Source: Plicaturopsis crispa FD-325 SS-3
Taxonomy: Eukaryota > Basidiomycota > Agaricomycetes > Amylocorticiales > Amylocorticiaceae
DNA length: 64,000 nt
Direction: 5' to 3'
Assembly (NCBI GenBank): GCA_000827205.1
Contig: KN832558.1
Coordinates: 1,317,110 to 1,381,109, forward strand
Below, piece by piece: positions 13,861 to 22,606 of this stretch; positions within the stretch are counted from its first letter, which is position 1; the number at the start of each line of letters is the position of its first letter. The translations under genes were made by a program, and so were the position numbers. Below the pieces are notes generated by a model. The model was not told the DNA's origin and did not search any database. It saw nothing but the letters and a program-made list of their open reading frames with translations.

Positions 13861-16209
13861 GTGCGTGGTAGATGCCAGTGCGAGCTGGATGATAAGTATC
13901 GTCGTGACCGTCGACCTCTTCCAAAGCGGGAGTATGCGCGTGTTTGGCTGCAGCCTCCGAAAAGGCATCATGATCTACGTGTCCTCCTCAATTTTCAAGC
14001 TCAAGCCAAACTCAGTCGCGTCCAACTCTCCCCTCAATGCCGCGCAAACGGCCAATTTCAACACGACTTGTCCATTCGGCAGGCCATGTCTTCTGGTACA
14101 GTGCTGGCGAATTTACCCTCTCGTCTATCGCGGCAAGTGCTCGTCCTTCCGCACCCGTCTTCCGTGATCGCACCCTCACGCGGTCTCTATCCCGCCAACT
14201 CCCATCCGAGTCTCCTTGAGCTATCTCAGCTGCACCTTCGCCCACCTCTCTCAACTCTCCACCGGTACTCCCTGCACGTACGCGCTCTTGTGGCTGGCTA
14301 AGGCGCTGGTCTGGCGCAACTTGAACACGCTCTCATGGGTACAACTACTCGGAGTTTCCGTCTGTAGATGTCTCGATTATGCGCCAATTGTGAGTACGTC
14401 TCTGCTTAGATCAAAGACGAGTCTGAACGATGTCCTATAGATGCGCTCGTAAACCACAACTCCTGGGCCTCGCGGAATACTGGACACGTCGCAGATGTCT
14501 GCCGCATGCGTTGTGGACAATCACCTGCATCTCGAGCGTGAATTGTGGAGCGTCAAGGCGGAGCTCTCATCTCGCTTCCTGAATCTCGTCCAACGTGTCT
14601 GGCGGTGGCATTCTTCACCTTTGTCTACGCGTACTAGGCTGTCCCATTATAACTCTCTGCCTGCATCACCTGGCTCGACTTTGCATTCTTCGGATCACAT
14701 GCACGAGTAGCTGTACATGTGTCATGTTTTTGTGCTCAGTGCCGTGAGTCCTTATATCACTAGTTCCTGGTTGTCTCAACCGTATCCTTCAGACTCACGA
14801 TCACATACGATCTTTCCGTCCCCCACGCGCCCCCTGCCTGCGAATCTTCTTCCCGCGCGTGCACGACCTCCCCTTGCACGCCGTCCCGCACCTTCGGGCC
14901 TGGAGAAGCGCGCGCTCGGGCATGACAGCAGAATGGTTGGCATACCAGTGTGGTGGAGTAGTAGGAGACACGACCGAAACGCGCGCCGATCAAGTCGGCT
15001 ACGAGCTAGAGCGATGAGCGAGCTTGGAGGATGGCGGAGGAGGTCAAGCGTCCAAGGAGCAGTGTCGGCTAGCGGGACAAATGCGGGCACCGTCCCTGAG
15101 CGAAGCGGGGGTTGGGTACGGAGAGTGCGGGTTCGCCGGGACTGCAGATGCATGCTGACTGAGACGTAGATGTCTGTATACACGTGCAAACGTCGTGGGC
15201 ATGACGCCGCGCGCAAGTCGTCGTCTCTACGATCATATCTGCTAGCGCCGGCGGCCGTCTCTCGGTGGCAGCGTCCCCCTGGCTCCATCGCGAGTTTCCA
15301 CCCCACTCGTTCCAATATCTCTTCCACAATGACCTGTAGGCATCCAAGCATCACCGCATCGCTTTACTACTTAAGCGTTATTGACTTGTGCAGCACTGCA
15401 CTGAACACGCAGATTCCCTCTTCGAGTTGTAATTCACTCGCAAGGGCATCATCTTCAAAAGCCGCCTATGTTCTCCTCTTCACGGACAGCTCGGATTCCT
15501 CCGCCGTCGGCGCTCCGCGAGCATCTGCCCCTGCAAGCGGCACAGTACGTCTTTCCTACCTGAGGCCTGAGCGCCGGTGTCCTTATCTCTGCGCGCAGTT
15601 GTCCTCTTGTCCCCACCGTGCTTTCTTACCCGCGCACAGCGTTCGCTCCCTTGGGTATGCAGCTTCCTTATATGCTTTGTGGAATTTGTTCTATGCATTT
15701 GCACCATAATGTGTGGGAGCTACCCTACAGGTAAGGTTGTCAGCTTATATGCTCTCCCAATCTCTGTCAGGTCAGTGAAAAAGCTAACACTTCAGAAAAA
15801 TAGGACAAACACCTGCTAACTGGATTGCATACATGCACACTTACTCTCATGCCTCTCACTGTTCCTATTTTGCTCATCTTGGCAATTTTTTATCCCCTTC
15901 GGTGATCAGGGTAGTGTCTGTGCATAGTGGAAACACTGGTGTGAATGTTCATGTATACAACAGTGTATGTAGTTTGAACAAATGACATGTGTTACCAAAA
16001 CATATTGACTTTGGAAATAATCAAAACTTAATGATGGTTACAAGTCCTAACTTGGACCCCATACAAATCTTGGAGACATTATTATCTAAGGTATGCAATG
16101 CAAAGATAATACTATTTCTGTTTTCATATAGGACCCATAGATGTGACTTGCTGTTAGGACCATTTATATAGCCATCCTTGTCCAATAGCAAGTATGATTT
16201 ATCTTCACC

Positions 16210-17990
16210 TACTAGGGCCAAAGCAAAATCTGATACTCTGACAGTTTTGTCATCTGAGCCTGACACAATTTTAGTGCCATTAGATGAAAATGCCACCGAT
16301 CGCACCCAATTTGTATGACCCATAAGAACATTTAAAGTAGCCTTAGTGTCTACATTCCATATTCTGATTGTCTGGTCACTTGAGCCTGACACAATTCTGG
16401 TACCATCAGGTGAAAATGCCACTGAGAGTACATCATCTATATGACCCTCAAGAATCTTCATAGCAGCTCCTGTTTCGGTGTCCCATATTATGATGGTTCG
16501 ATCACCTGAGCCTGACACAATGTTGGTGCCATCAGGTGAGAATGCAACTGATGGCACACGGTCTGTATGGCCATATAGAACTTTCAAGGCAGCTCCTGTT
16601 TCTGCCTCCCATATTCTGATAGACTGGTCATCTGAGCCTGACACAATTTTAGTGTCATTAGGTGAGAATGCCACTGCTGTCACCCAATCTCTATGACCAC
16701 TAAGAATATTCAAAGTAGCTCCTGTTGCTGCATTCCATATTCTGACTGTTTGGTCATTTGAGCCTGATGCAATCTTGACACCCTTGGGTGAGAATACAAC
16801 TGATCGCACCCAATCTGTATGACCCTCAAGAACCTTCAAAACAGCTCCAGTGTCTGCATCCCATACCCTCAAAGTATGGTCATGTGAACCTGACACAAGC
16901 TTGGTACCATCAGATGAAAATGCAATTGATTGAATCCAACTGGTATGACCCTTGAAATCACTTGTAACAGCTTTCCTCTCTACATTCCAGATTCCGATGG
17001 TTTCGTCATTTGAGCCTGACACAATGTTGGTGCCATCAGGTGCAAATGTAACTGATGGCACATGGTCTAAATAACCCTCTGAAACATTTAAAGAAGCTCC
17101 TGTTTTTGCATCCCATATTTTAATAGTGCAATCACCTGAGCCTGACACAATTCTGGTGCTATCAGGTGAGAATGCAACTGATGGCACACGGTCTGTATGA
17201 CCATCAAGAACAATCAAAACAGCCCCTGTTTCTGCCTCCCATATTCTGATTGTTTGGTCGTCTGAGCCTGAAACAATTTTACTACTATCAGGTGAAAATG
17301 CAACTGATGACACTAAATCTGTATGACCCTTAAGAGTGTGCACAGTAACTTTTGTTGTTATATTCCATACTCTAATTGTCTGGTCATTTGAGCCTGACAC
17401 AATTTTTGCACTATTGGATGAAAATGCAACTGATTGCACCCAATCTGTATGTCCATATAGAACCTTCAAACCAGCCCCAGTATCTATGTCCCATGCCCTA
17501 ATGGTCTGATCATCTGAGCCTGAAACAATTTTGGTGCCATCAGGTGAAAATGCAACTGATTGCACTCGATCTATATAACCTTCAAGAACATTCAAAGCAG
17601 TACCTGTTTCTATGTCCCATATTCTGATGGTTTTATCATGTGATCCTGAGACAATTTTGGTGCCATTGGGTGAATATGCAATTGATTGTACTTGATCTTC
17701 ATGACCCTCAAGAACATTTAAAGCTACCCCTGTTTCTGGGTCCCATATTCTAATGGTTTGGTCACCTGAGCCTAACACAATTCTGGTGCCATTAGGTGAA
17801 AATGCCACTGAGTGTACATCATCTGTATGACCCTCAAGAACATTTAATGAAACACCCGTTTTTGCTTCCCACATTCTGATGGTTTGGTCATCTGAGCCTG
17901 ATATGATTCTGGTGCCATTAGGTGAGAATGCTATGGATTGAACTGTGTCTGAATGTCCTAATACAGTGCACAGTAATGGTTCCCAGCCCC
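16210..17990 (-). repeat. Array of 14 WD40 repeats, 42 codons each
   Basis: Fourteen 126-bp units encode the pattern GHTDxVxSVAFSPDGTKIVSGSDDQTIRIWxxxTG. Units differ most right after GHTD (V, D, Q, R, W, L, H), at the residue before SVAFS, and in the spacer after the Trp. This high internal identity with focal variation is the signature of the HET-E/D/R family. Fourteen units would make two seven-bladed propellers. Confidence 0.92.
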
Positions 17991-18888
17991 TCTTGATGCC
18001 GGACACAATTTTTGGGATGCTTTGCTTTTGTGTGAAATATATTTATGCAGGTATGTCTCATATGGAGCCCAAAGCAAGGCTGAATAGTATATCTCCATAG
18101 GTGACACACAAATAATGTCCATGAACTCAAGCATGAATCTTTGAATGTCATAGACCAAGTTAAGATTTACATTCTGATTGTTCAATGTCTGTAAAGGTTA
18201 TATTGAGTATATTTCTCAGTCCAGTCAATCCTCAACTAACCTTATTGCCCACATAAATAAGTAGCCCTTGTATGGCTTCAGCAGCTGCTTTCATATCACC
18301 CAACAGACTAAAACACTCAAGCCAATGCAGCATATGTTTGGTAATGAACTCATCAAACTCTGCACTCATTTCAAGGTTAATGCCTGCAATGAGATGTCTT
18401 GTCCAGTAGATGCATGCATATCTCATTGTGCTTGATATCCCCCCTATTATATCTGATTTTTTAATGCTATTCAAGGGTGGACGTCCTTCAAGATTGCACA
18501 TATTCTCATGCAAATTGGCATTCATATACTGCAGGCACTTCATGGTTATAAATTCATGATGTTTTTTGGGATCACAGGCAAAACCCTGAGCACGATCTTT
18601 GCAGGTAATAAAGTCAAAGAAGGAGGCATGGAAGTATGTCACAGGACTTTCAGTAGAGTCAGGCACTTGCATAATGGAGCCAAGCATATCAAACTTTGCC
18701 TTGATTTCTTCGGCGTGTTGTCCTAACAAATTAGCAATACATGTGCTGCTTTGTGGTGTATACATCAAGAGCATTGTGTATAAGGACTGGTAAATAGCAT
18801 CCACCTCTTGCTGCAAAAGTTTTGGATTATCTAGGACAGCTTGCAGTATTTGCCTATACAACTCATCAATAGGCTGCTCTAGGGATTC

Positions 18889-19035
18889 TGTCATGAACCG
18901 ACCATTCTACTGGTTTAAGGGGATTGAACTGTGCGATCAACATATATAGCGCTCGCAAACTAATATCAGTAACCTGATATTGTGGCCTTTTGGCTCAGTG
19001 GTTCTGGGTTCATTGCGAGTGGCCCGGTTCTTACA
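18889..19035. repeat. Left terminal direct repeat of the TRIM-like element
   Basis: 147 bp, TG...CA ends, identical by eye to 19351-19497. It contains TGGCTCAGTGG, which resembles a pol III A box; see findings. Confidence 0.9.
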
Positions 19036-19350
19036 GAATATCAGGTTACAAGGACATCGGTTCAACTCCCCATGGTGTCACTTGTTTCCCCAAAAATTCT
19101 CTGCTTCCATGCGAGACACGGAGTACCGTGGGCCCCTCTATTCTTCCGGTTCCGTCCGGTGGCCTGGGAATAAGAAACAAGGTTATGTGAGGTGTCCACC
19201 CGATTCCAAATTCGGGCACTTTGGGCACCAATAACTGCCCAAACCATGACAAATGGGGTCTCTGGGTTCCGATGGCTTACATGAGCAATCATGGGGGTCT
19301 TATATAAATGTCACAGGGGCTTCGAGGGCTCAGCCCTTGCAGGGGGGTAC

Positions 19351-19497
19351 TGTCATGAACCGACCATTCTACTGGTTTAAGGGGATTGAACTGTGCGATC
19401 AACATATATAGCGCTCGCAAACTAATATCAGTAACCTGATATTGTGGCCTTTTGGCTCAGTGGTTCTGGGTTCATTGCGAGTGGCCCGGTTCTTACA
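19351..19497. repeat. Right terminal direct repeat of the TRIM-like element
   Basis: 147 bp, same sequence as the left copy, followed at once by the duplicated target GATTC. Confidence 0.9.
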
Positions 19498-21671
19498 GAT
19501 TCCTGCTCTGTGTTCTGTAGGATAAAGGCAAGGCGAGATCTTGGATCAACACCTTTGACATTCACAAATTGGCAAACTGTAAAGGCATATATGAAAAGGT
19601 TTCCAGCTCTTTTCCCCAATATATCAATCTGTGATTTGGTAGGCCACTCTTGTGGAAAGTCACTGTAATTTGTTGTGTTCTTGGCCATTTTCTTCAATGT
19701 GGTCATCAAATACAGTTGAATATCAGCCTGCACAATGTCCTCTTCGATATTGTGTAGATGTAAAATGGTGCCAACACCATCATCTAGAACTTTCCTTGAC
19801 ATATGAAGAATGTCTATCTCTGGCCTTCCTGTGACAAAGAAATATAAAGCAGACAGCTGAGACATATATTTGCAGAGAAGGGTCAATAGTTCATGTATCA
19901 CAGTGTGATCAGTACATTCATCCAGTGCATCAATCACTACAATAGTGGGAGAATGTGGCATCTGCATTTGCAAGAATGGCTTCACAATAAGCTTTTGGAA
20001 CAAACTATCACTCAAGGCATGATGCCCAACATCAGGTTCAGCTTTTAGAATCTGCACAAGGGCAGTAGAAAAAGCTGGCAGAGACAAAGCAAGTCCATAT
20101 GCAATTGTTGGAAGGATGTGCTGTGCATCCCTACGTTCTGCATCAGAGTGGCTGCAGAAAAAGGTGGCACCAAGCATTTTTTGTGCTTTGAATCTATAGG
20201 CCACAGATGTAGCCACAGCTGTTTTACCAGTACCTGCTATGCCATTAAGCCAATATATTTTGGCTTTTCCCCCAGTAGTTGGCCACTTGTCAATTTCAGA
20301 CAGCAGTGTGGTGCGTGTGCCAGCCATACATCCTGGATGAGTGCTTGATTCCAACCTAGCACTATGAAGGCATCCTAAGTCATCCAAAAACCCTGTATAG
20401 CCATGTCAGATACAGAAAGGCATAAAGACAGATGTAACAAACTTATGCTGGCAAGCTAGCATCATATTATTGGCATGTATATTCCATAGAAGCAATATTG
20501 CACTGACCTGGTCTACAGTCTTTTCAATTTGGACCATGGATCCAAGCTAAACAATTAGAGGGATGGTATATAAGAGCAGCTGTAATAAGAGACAGATAAA
20601 CTAACCATAAAGGTTTGAATGATTTGATGGATGTTACGGAAGATGTCTGTGATTTTTCCAATGTCTTGGTAGGAATCAATCATGCATCAGGAAAACCCCT
20701 TTTGCTATATAGAAACACAAAATTTGTAATAGCACATATAGTTAGAATGGTGCATTTATAGCTCCAAATACGACCTATAGCTAGCTTGACTTCTAGTGAA
20801 TTTGAGGGTCAATATATGGAAATGTAGTTAGACTAGCAGTGACCCGTGCTACGCACAGGATTTTACGCAGATGTACAGCTGCATGTACTTAGTATTCACA
20901 CTTCAAAGTCTGAGTAACTGTATTTTCGGTCATGCTGTGAAGGTCAGTCCAATGAAGGCGCCCTTCCCCGCCAACCTTCGGTTGGGCGGCTCAGGGCCTG
21001 CTGTACTGATGAGCTCAGGATGCGCTTATAACAGCTTGAAGCAGCGTCCACTAACATCCACATCCATCTTGCATGGGCATGTTAGTACAGACCCGGCCCG
21101 TGAACTTGTTATCCTACTACCCGCCACCTGTGTTTCTCCAGTGGTTTCTTCTGCCTGGAAATACTGCTTCGTGCTTGCTTGTGCGCAATTAAAGTTGCCG
21201 GTGCATTACTGTTTGATTACTGTAGCTTCAATTATATCCGTCACGGACATCCAGTAAGTCAAGTACCTTATCTACTTAAGAAAGCGGCCAGTGCACCCGT
21301 GCATTACTTACACTTATCATTTGCTACACCTATCACTTGCCTGTCTTGCCCGTCGCTCGTTGCCCGTTGTAATTTATAAGTAAATAGTGACTTAGAGTAT
21401 GTTGCGGACTTCCGGGCATGGGTGGCTATTCTGGTCCTGCGCTGTTCAAGCGGCCGTAGAACGTGTGCAATTGTGGTCGGAGTACACACATAGTATTTTT
21501 CCTGTCCCGAGAGAGTCCAGTATCCTCATGGATGGTGACTGGCGGACGGCCAACGAAAGCGTTGAACATTGAATATTGAACGTCGAATGGCCGGTTGCGC
21601 GACTGACCGGTTTCCCGGATCTGTGTTGTACTGTTTGGCGAATCCGCGTCGGTTTGTCGTCAGCCAATCAG

Positions 21672-21924
21672 GTTGTCTTTTTGTCTTGTCTTTTTGTCTT
21701 TGTCCACCCAGGTCTTTTGTATTCTAGGATAAGTAGAGGTGCTCTAATAGCTCTTATAGCTGGAAACCACATCTTTGACACCATCCTATGTTTAGGATAT
21801 AATAGCTTTAGGTGGCAGTTATGGTGTGTTACGCATGTAAAATATAGTCAATACCTCATGTTTGGAAGTACAAATACACATTCAAAAGCACAGACATAGA
21901 CTAGAAATCAAAACATCTTGTAAG
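21672..21924 (+). repeat. 253-bp direct repeat, left copy, ends at the gap
   Basis: Identical by eye to 22354-22606. The left copy runs to the last base before the N run. It starts with a TCTTTTTGTCTTG-rich microsatellite. Confidence 0.9.
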
Positions 21925-22347
21925 NNNNNNNNNNNNNNNNNNNNNNNNNNNNNNNNNNNNNNNNNNNNNNNNNNNNNNNNNNNNNNNNNNNNNNNNNNNN
22001 NNNNNNNNNNNNNNNNNNNNNNNNNNNNNNNNNNNNNNNNNNNNNNNNNNNNNNNNNNNNNNNNNNNNNNNNNNNNNNNNNNNNNNNNNNNNNNNNNNNN
22101 NNNNNNNNNNNNNNNNNNNNNNNNNNNNNNNNNNNNNNNNNNNNNNNNNNNNNNNNNNNNNNNNNNNNNNNNNNNNNNNNNNNNNNNNNNNNNNNNNNNN
22201 NNNNNNNNNNNNNNNNNNNNNNNNNNNNNNNNNNNNNNNNNNNNNNNNNNNNNNNNNNNNNNNNNNNNNNNNNNNNNNNNNNNNNNNNNNNNNNNNNNNN
22301 NNNNNNNNNNNNNNNNNNNNNNNNNNNNNNNNNNNNNNNNNNNNNNN
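21925..22347. other. Assembly gap (423 N)
   Basis: Unresolved bases. The sequence just before the gap recurs just after it, so the size and even the reality of the gap are doubtful. Confidence 0.99.
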
Positions 22348-22353
22348 TGTTGT

Positions 22354-22606
22354 GTTGTCTTTTTGTCTTGTCTTTTTGTCTTTGTCCACCCAGGTCTTTT
22401 GTATTCTAGGATAAGTAGAGGTGCTCTAATAGCTCTTATAGCTGGAAACCACATCTTTGACACCATCCTATGTTTAGGATATAATAGCTTTAGGTGGCAG
22501 TTATGGTGTGTTACGCATGTAAAATATAGTCAATACCTCATGTTTGGAAGTACAAATACACATTCAAAAGCACAGACATAGACTAGAAATCAAAACATCT
22601 TGTAAG
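22354..22606 (+). repeat. 253-bp direct repeat, right copy
   Basis: Identical by eye to 21672-21924 and begins six bases after the gap. Unlike the left copy it continues into unique sequence at its 3' side. Confidence 0.9.

Follow-up and report, generated by a model that had tools for sequence, protein, structure and literature searches.

TRIM elements of plants, animals and fungi are less than 1 kb in length. They have short LTRs, a purine tract and no protein, duplicate 5 bp of their target and leave solo LTRs. A primer-binding site (PBS) complementary to a tRNA is listed as a TRIM feature, and bivalve TRIMs with no conventional PBS are also described (PMC6934838). According to Kojima 2024 (PMC10886601), it is not known by what means TRIMs maintain their reliance on a partner element.

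The Helenus elements carry a tRNA-like sequence with both Pol III boxes in the LTR, and have a tRNA-type PBS; a Copia helper has been proposed in fungi (Kojima 2024, PMC10886601). Where that source treats the point, the tRNA-like LTR sequence is not complementary to the PBS, and priming by the initiator-tRNA anticodon is given as common in fungal Helenus (PMC10886601). A sequence-only reading of the DNA analysed here had TRIMs described in only a few fungi. This is outdated: there are 113 Helenus families in rust fungi (PMC10886601) and LTR/TRIM entries in three of five Boletales genomes (PMC5689174). The Amylocorticiales are absent from Table 1 of Kojima 2024 (PMC10886601).

Elements of the Tf1/sushi group (Tf1, Tf2, Cft-1, Maggy, Skippy and others) have an LTR sequence at the likely RNA start that is complementary to a site after the 5′ LTR (PMC6934838). 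A self-primer has been defined as at least 10 bp complementary to the 5′ LTR, starting 0–5 bp after the 5′ LTR (PMC6317226). Fungal GalEa Copia elements with a Conserved Hairpin Site have a hairpin at the place of the PBS and no tRNA-type PBS; both arms lie after the LTR, and the relevant text of that source reports no LTR complement as detected (PMC5445492). The bivalve TRIM paper brings up self-priming as a comparison (PMC6934838). No description of a self-primed TRIM was found among the papers listed in searches of the open-access literature; the term self-priming does not occur in PMC4717578, and the TRIM parts of PMC9674265 and PMC13041039 hold nothing on priming.

The element described here lies in a stretch of 64,000 nucleotides from the wood-decay fungus Plicaturopsis crispa FD-325 SS-3 (Agaricomycetes, Amylocorticiales; the stretch is termed the window; C5:1317110–1381109, where C denotes a contig). 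The genome searched is a 33.2-Mb assembly of 49 contigs, parts of which are masked. The element is a TRIM that inserted in a NACHT-WD40 gene; it is probably self-primed in the Tf1/sushi manner and probably depends on the proteins of a Ty3/gypsy chromovirus that is itself self-priming, such as that on C25.

The 609-bp element and its copies

Window positions 18889–19497 hold a complete LTR-type element of 609 bp (147 + 315 + 147 bp). Its features are as follows.

18884–18888, no strand: left target-site duplication, GATTC (read from the sequence)
18889–19035, plus strand: left (5′) LTR, 147 bp, TGTCATG...CTTACA (repeat comparison)
18943–18948, plus strand: TATATA box at LTR position 55, 26 nt before the putative self-primer (read from the sequence; presumed Pol II use)
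18969–18981, plus strand: putative RNA 5′ end and self-primer, GTAACCTGATATT (13/13 complementary to 19037–19049)
18991–19001, plus strand: A-box-like sequence inside the LTR, TGGCTCAGTGG (general consensus, with background counts)
19036–19350, plus strand: internal region, 315 bp (present only in the two complete copies)
19037–19049, plus strand: primer-binding site, AATATCAGGTTAC, 1 nt past the LTR end (its complement lies within the LTR of the same element)
19059–19069, plus strand: B-box-like sequence, internal region only, GGTTCAACTCC (general consensus)
19342–19347, plus strand: polypurine tract GGGGGG, separated from the right LTR by TAC (chromoviruses of the same genome have a similar junction)
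19351–19497, plus strand: right (3′) LTR, identical to the left LTR (repeat comparison)
19498–19502, no strand: right target-site duplication, GATTC (read from the sequence)

The left and right LTRs are identical over all 147 bp and have TG...CA ends. The sequence-only reading had called a TRIM-type element at 18884–19502 from these repeats, the purine tract and the GATTC on both sides, and this call holds. Both the LTR length and the total size fall within the bounds given for TRIMs (LTRs of about 100–250 bp, total below 1 kb; PMC6934838), and a purine tract and target-site duplication are both present. The longest stop-to-stop frame inside the element, in the list of frames, is 94 codons. 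There is no open reading frame of the size of a chromovirus pol; thus the element is not itself a chromovirus member of the Tf1/sushi group. It differs from TRIMs in one feature: the PBS is complementary to its own LTR and not to any tRNA tested. The name TRIM is used here in the structural sense only.

The LTR also contains a perfect hairpin, AATATCAG-TAAC-CTGATATT, at window positions 18962–18981, over the self-primer. The 3′ LTR of the RNA includes the upstream arm, and the hairpin could hide the copy of the primer there.

A genome search, of the kind that the sequence-only reading had proposed, yielded sibling copies, each with a 5-bp duplication of its own. There are at least two complete copies and at least five solo LTRs. 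Perfect 5-bp duplications are present at 7/7 insertions (GATTC, GTAAG, CTCTC, CATGC, GGGTG, GGGCC and TAGTG), which is far beyond chance. Five of these seven insertions would later have collapsed to solo LTRs. The LTR pair is identical within each complete copy (0/147 differences in both). Compared with the window copy, the LTRs on C6, C7 and C12 show one difference each, that on C38 two, that on C22 three and that on C8 five. The two complete copies (C5 and C6) differ at 10 alignment positions, gaps counted.

Both complete copies lie in coding frames. The second one (C6:617635–618243) interrupts the frame of a Plavaka transposase; the joined frame has 426 codons and PF18759 matches on both sides (E-values 6.6e-21 and 5e-69). 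The C6 copy is a retroelement nested within a DNA transposon. At the C12 solo-LTR site the joined frame has 276 codons and its left side, the part searched, has no Pfam match; this site is not called an interrupted gene. The solo-LTR sites on C7, C38 and C22 show no joined frame of more than 116 codons, and that on C8, with its short right flank, none of more than 164.

Priming layout and a candidate helper

The sequence AATATCAGGTTAC is the exact complement of LTR positions 81–93 (13/13). In the C6 copy the complementarity between LTR and PBS is 11/11, not 13. Both complete copies thus fit the definition of a self-primer in PMC6317226, with 13 bp in C5, starting 1 nt after the LTR, and 11 bp in C6. 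When the 20 nt after the LTR were shuffled, none of 20,000 shuffles reached 13 nt, and five reached 11 or 12. RNA starting at 18969 folds into a stem of self-primer and PBS (z = -4.0; 0/200 shuffles as stable). The start of TATATA is 26 nt upstream of LTR position 81, which is consistent with the self-primer forming the first bases of the RNA. The PBS complementarity together with the TATA box suggests the self-priming layout of Tf1/sushi elements. TRIM RNA would start near LTR position 81, downstream of the TATA box. By folding back, its first 11–13 nt would pair with the site immediately beyond the 5′ LTR and act as the primer of reverse transcription. Such fold-back priming would need no tRNA.

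The likeness to the Tf1/sushi group lies in this layout, and the difference in the element itself, which is noncoding and 609 bp long vs several kb. As in GalEa elements, there is no tRNA-type PBS and a hairpin at the PBS place; here the partner sequence belongs to the LTR and coincides with the likely start of the RNA.

Priming by a host tRNA is unsupported. Against 52 tRNA loci the complement extends over 8 nt at most; stretches of this length begin at offsets 9 and 17, away from the start of the PBS. The test covered the first 20 nt and also 25 nt after the LTR, and was run as well with introns removed and CCA added. The 52 loci are 51 of the 53 matches listed and one initiator-type locus on C3; the two omitted, C2:1729483 and C2:1741287, have the same score as one that was fetched. 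The set is an incomplete one (63 of 681 candidates scored), so a tRNA outside it could fit. The initiator anticodon arm was located by its general pattern; this arm, GGGCTCATAACCCCGAGG, is unlike the PBS, and priming by the initiator-tRNA anticodon was rejected.

A candidate helper is found in the same genome. On C25 there is an autonomous chromovirus with an open pol that shows reverse transcriptase, RNase H, integrase zinc finger, SH3_Tf2-1 and Chromo domains; the match to the integrase core is below the cut-off. Its 5′ LTR has a TATAAA followed 33 nt later by AGACTTTAAATT, and a 12-nt complement, AATTTAAAGTCT, lies 1 nt past the LTR end. Among 495 segments of 16 nt downstream of this LTR, only four (offsets 0–3) reach at least 11 nt of complementarity. 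Because masking hides the 3′ end of the 3′ LTR, the 5′ LTR boundary was placed from the point at which the C30 copy ceases to match and from the CACA at position 1059.

The TRIM and the chromovirus have GGGGGGTACTGTCA in common, which spans the purine tract and the LTR start. In the 36 kb searched, the TRIM matches the C24 chromovirus copy over 42 bp (83% identity, E-value = 1e-5); matches to the C25 and C30 copies are weaker (26 bp at 88%, E-value = 0.018 each). The LTR bodies of the TRIM and the chromovirus display no likeness beyond the ends. In a search for the junction pattern with three mismatches or fewer there were 24 places vs 25 in the control, and only the five places with two mismatches or fewer stand out. 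The short similarity of the ends could be a general chromovirus feature. In the partly masked genome no autonomous element with the TRIM's own PBS stood out above the control (three other places with two mismatches vs four in the control).

From these end and layout similarities, a self-priming chromovirus is the likely type of helper and would supply the proteins for the TRIM in trans.

Pol III boxes and the relation to Helenus

The A box at 18991 lies in the LTR and the B box at 19059 in the internal region, 68 nt downstream. At a spacing of 30–95 nt, the two strands of the window hold no other A/B pair, and 72 kb of control strands hold none at all (counted with the general consensus). ARAGORN predicts no tRNA in the window. 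Rfam gave no tRNA match in the region 18700–19700; its two sub-threshold matches are both outside the element. Pol III transcription of the TRIM is possible from the position of the boxes.

As an alternative to the TATA-driven start, Pol III would transcribe the self-primed TRIM, using a tRNA-type promoter in two parts with the A box in the LTR and the B box internal. An A/B pair of this kind would set the Pol III start about 20 nt upstream, which is the start of the self-primer. The element length is also within the limit discussed for TRIMp3 (Kojima 2024, PMC10886601). However, the TATA box is at the distance usual for Pol II and accounts for this RNA start as well, the C25 chromovirus likewise has a TATAAA and a self-primer, and the TTTT at 18988 could stop Pol III at once. 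Pol III transcription of a self-primed TRIM is considered unlikely on these grounds. Slightly less likely again is the fuller proposal of a retroelement that can do without a tRNA and without a protein of its own, in which the split Pol III promoter would place the RNA start exactly at the self-primer. If Pol III transcription did occur, one sequence would serve as transcription start and as primer of reverse transcription. With the B box outside the LTR, only complete copies, and not solo LTRs, would make such RNA.

A second alternative is that the element is an aberrant Helenus/TRIMp3. As proposed for fungal Helenus, its Pol III promoter would derive from a tRNA, a host tRNA would be its primer and a Copia element would mobilise it. 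The A- and B-box motifs, the size, the 5-bp duplications and the Agaricomycete hosts are points of likeness to Helenus/TRIMp3. The A box TGGCTCAGTGG in the LTR and the B box GGTTCAACTCC 68 nt downstream fit Helenus, and 5-bp duplications and size are as in fungal Helenus (PMC10886601). A loose reading of the Helenus motifs in that source (TRGCY, YGG, GGTTC) would accept the LTR alone. In contrast, the LTR here contains the A box and a bare GGTTC, and the full B box at 19059 is internal, contrary to Helenus. Neither ARAGORN nor Rfam gives a tRNA match for the element. No tRNA-type PBS was found among the loci tested; the PBS fits the element's own LTR, whereas in Helenus, as it is described in PMC10886601, the PBS has no complement in the tRNA-like sequence of the LTR. 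The ends of the element resemble those of a chromovirus, in a comparison limited to the chromovirus ends of the genome. Because the box position, the PBS type and the LTR/PBS complementarity depart from Helenus, the element is not filed there, and this second alternative is regarded as quite improbable.

Helenus-type TRIMs are present in the same genome. One, at C20:270300–271900, has 173-bp LTRs that contain a tRNA-like stretch with an A and a B box, and is flanked on each side by GCGCG. A second copy at C9:529700–530500 is partly masked; its purine tract is readable before the LTR. The LTR/PBS complementarity in the Helenus-type TRIM reaches only 6 nt. Thus, the complementarity test discriminates.

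The interrupted NACHT-WD40 gene

The gene that contains the element is read on the minus strand, and the following parts were identified.

20405–19503, minus strand: NACHT-type piece of the host gene, 301 aa, N-terminal side of the insertion (PF24883, 1.8e-28; PF05729, 0.00044, below the curated cut-off)
18883–18232, minus strand: post-NACHT piece of the host gene, 217 aa, C-terminal side of the insertion (37–56% identity to 4/4 paralog stretches; no Pfam match)
18042–16021, minus strand: WD40 repeat exon of the host gene, 673 codons open (PF00400, 14 stretches)

The order of domains is that of a NACHT-WD40 gene, a NACHT-type NTPase followed by WD40 repeats. The gap between the post-NACHT piece and the WD40 exon is taken as an intron. 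The element lies antisense to the gene, within one exon. When the flanks are joined in silico to give the empty site, a single stop-free frame of 519 codons spans the insertion point; the longest of the other five frames at the joined site has 86 codons. There are 15 NACHT matches in the genome, one of which is the split gene. Four of the other 14 were fetched, and in all four of these paralogs the exon continues through the equivalent site. Three of the four stretches match proteins of P. crispa FD-325 SS-3 at 100% identity over 202–283 residues; the fourth has no identical counterpart in the set of six proteins compared. The joined frame and the uninterrupted paralogs bear out the earlier claim that the insertion splits a NACHT-WD40 coding exon. 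The LTRs, the target duplications, the sibling copies and the split exon are read directly from the DNA. The sequence-only reading includes neither the putative self-primer and the candidate helper chromovirus nor the Pol III boxes.

An LTR-type integrase making a 5-bp staggered cut would have brought the TRIM into the NACHT-WD40 exon, in antisense orientation, and interrupted the gene.

The WD40 exon (16021–18042) has its 14 scored repeat stretches in a single open frame, and in this it resembles WD40 arrays in fungal incompatibility NLRs. At window positions 21573–22581 the same translated stretch flanks a masked run of N (about 21924–22409), as if a further repeat-flanked element lay there.

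The sequence-only reading proposed that other strains, or the second nucleus of a dikaryon, may carry the empty site. No near-identical uninterrupted protein is present among the matches listed in three protein searches (one limited to E-value = 1e-50). The sole match with 100% identity is a fragment of 176 aa from the same contig; it ends well before the insertion and so says nothing on splicing.

An alternative regarded as quite improbable is that the gene is unbroken and that the element is removed in antisense as a 590-nt intron (19496–18907), leaving eight extra in-frame codons. In its favour are splice-like ends (donor TGTAAGA at the element's first bases and acceptor CAGTAG near the other end), an open reading frame (18906–18232) open from just past the acceptor into the gene, in the correct frame by count, and no decay of the coding frame on either side of the insertion. 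Against it, an intron of 590 nt would be long by basidiomycete standards, and no good branch site is seen by eye at the usual distance.

The insertion had been described as young from the identity of its LTRs. With 147 bp free of differences, the divergence is at most about 0.02 substitutions per site (95% bound, Poisson). With a fungal rate of 1.05e-9 substitutions per site per year (PMC5689174), this bound corresponds to an insertion age of up to roughly 10 million years. Thus LTR identity alone does not establish a very recent insertion; it dates the event weakly. The undecayed frames on both sides are a better sign of youth.

A TRIM within a gene is in itself ordinary; the notable point is the self-priming layout that this element has in common with a chromovirus of the same genome. 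The insertion also shows how a single event can remove one NLR from a fungal repertoire while the remainder of the gene is still intact. If the TRIM is self-primed, its helper would be narrowed to self-priming elements such as chromoviruses, and a testable rule would follow, in which the element's own RNA start is the source for rebuilding the PBS.
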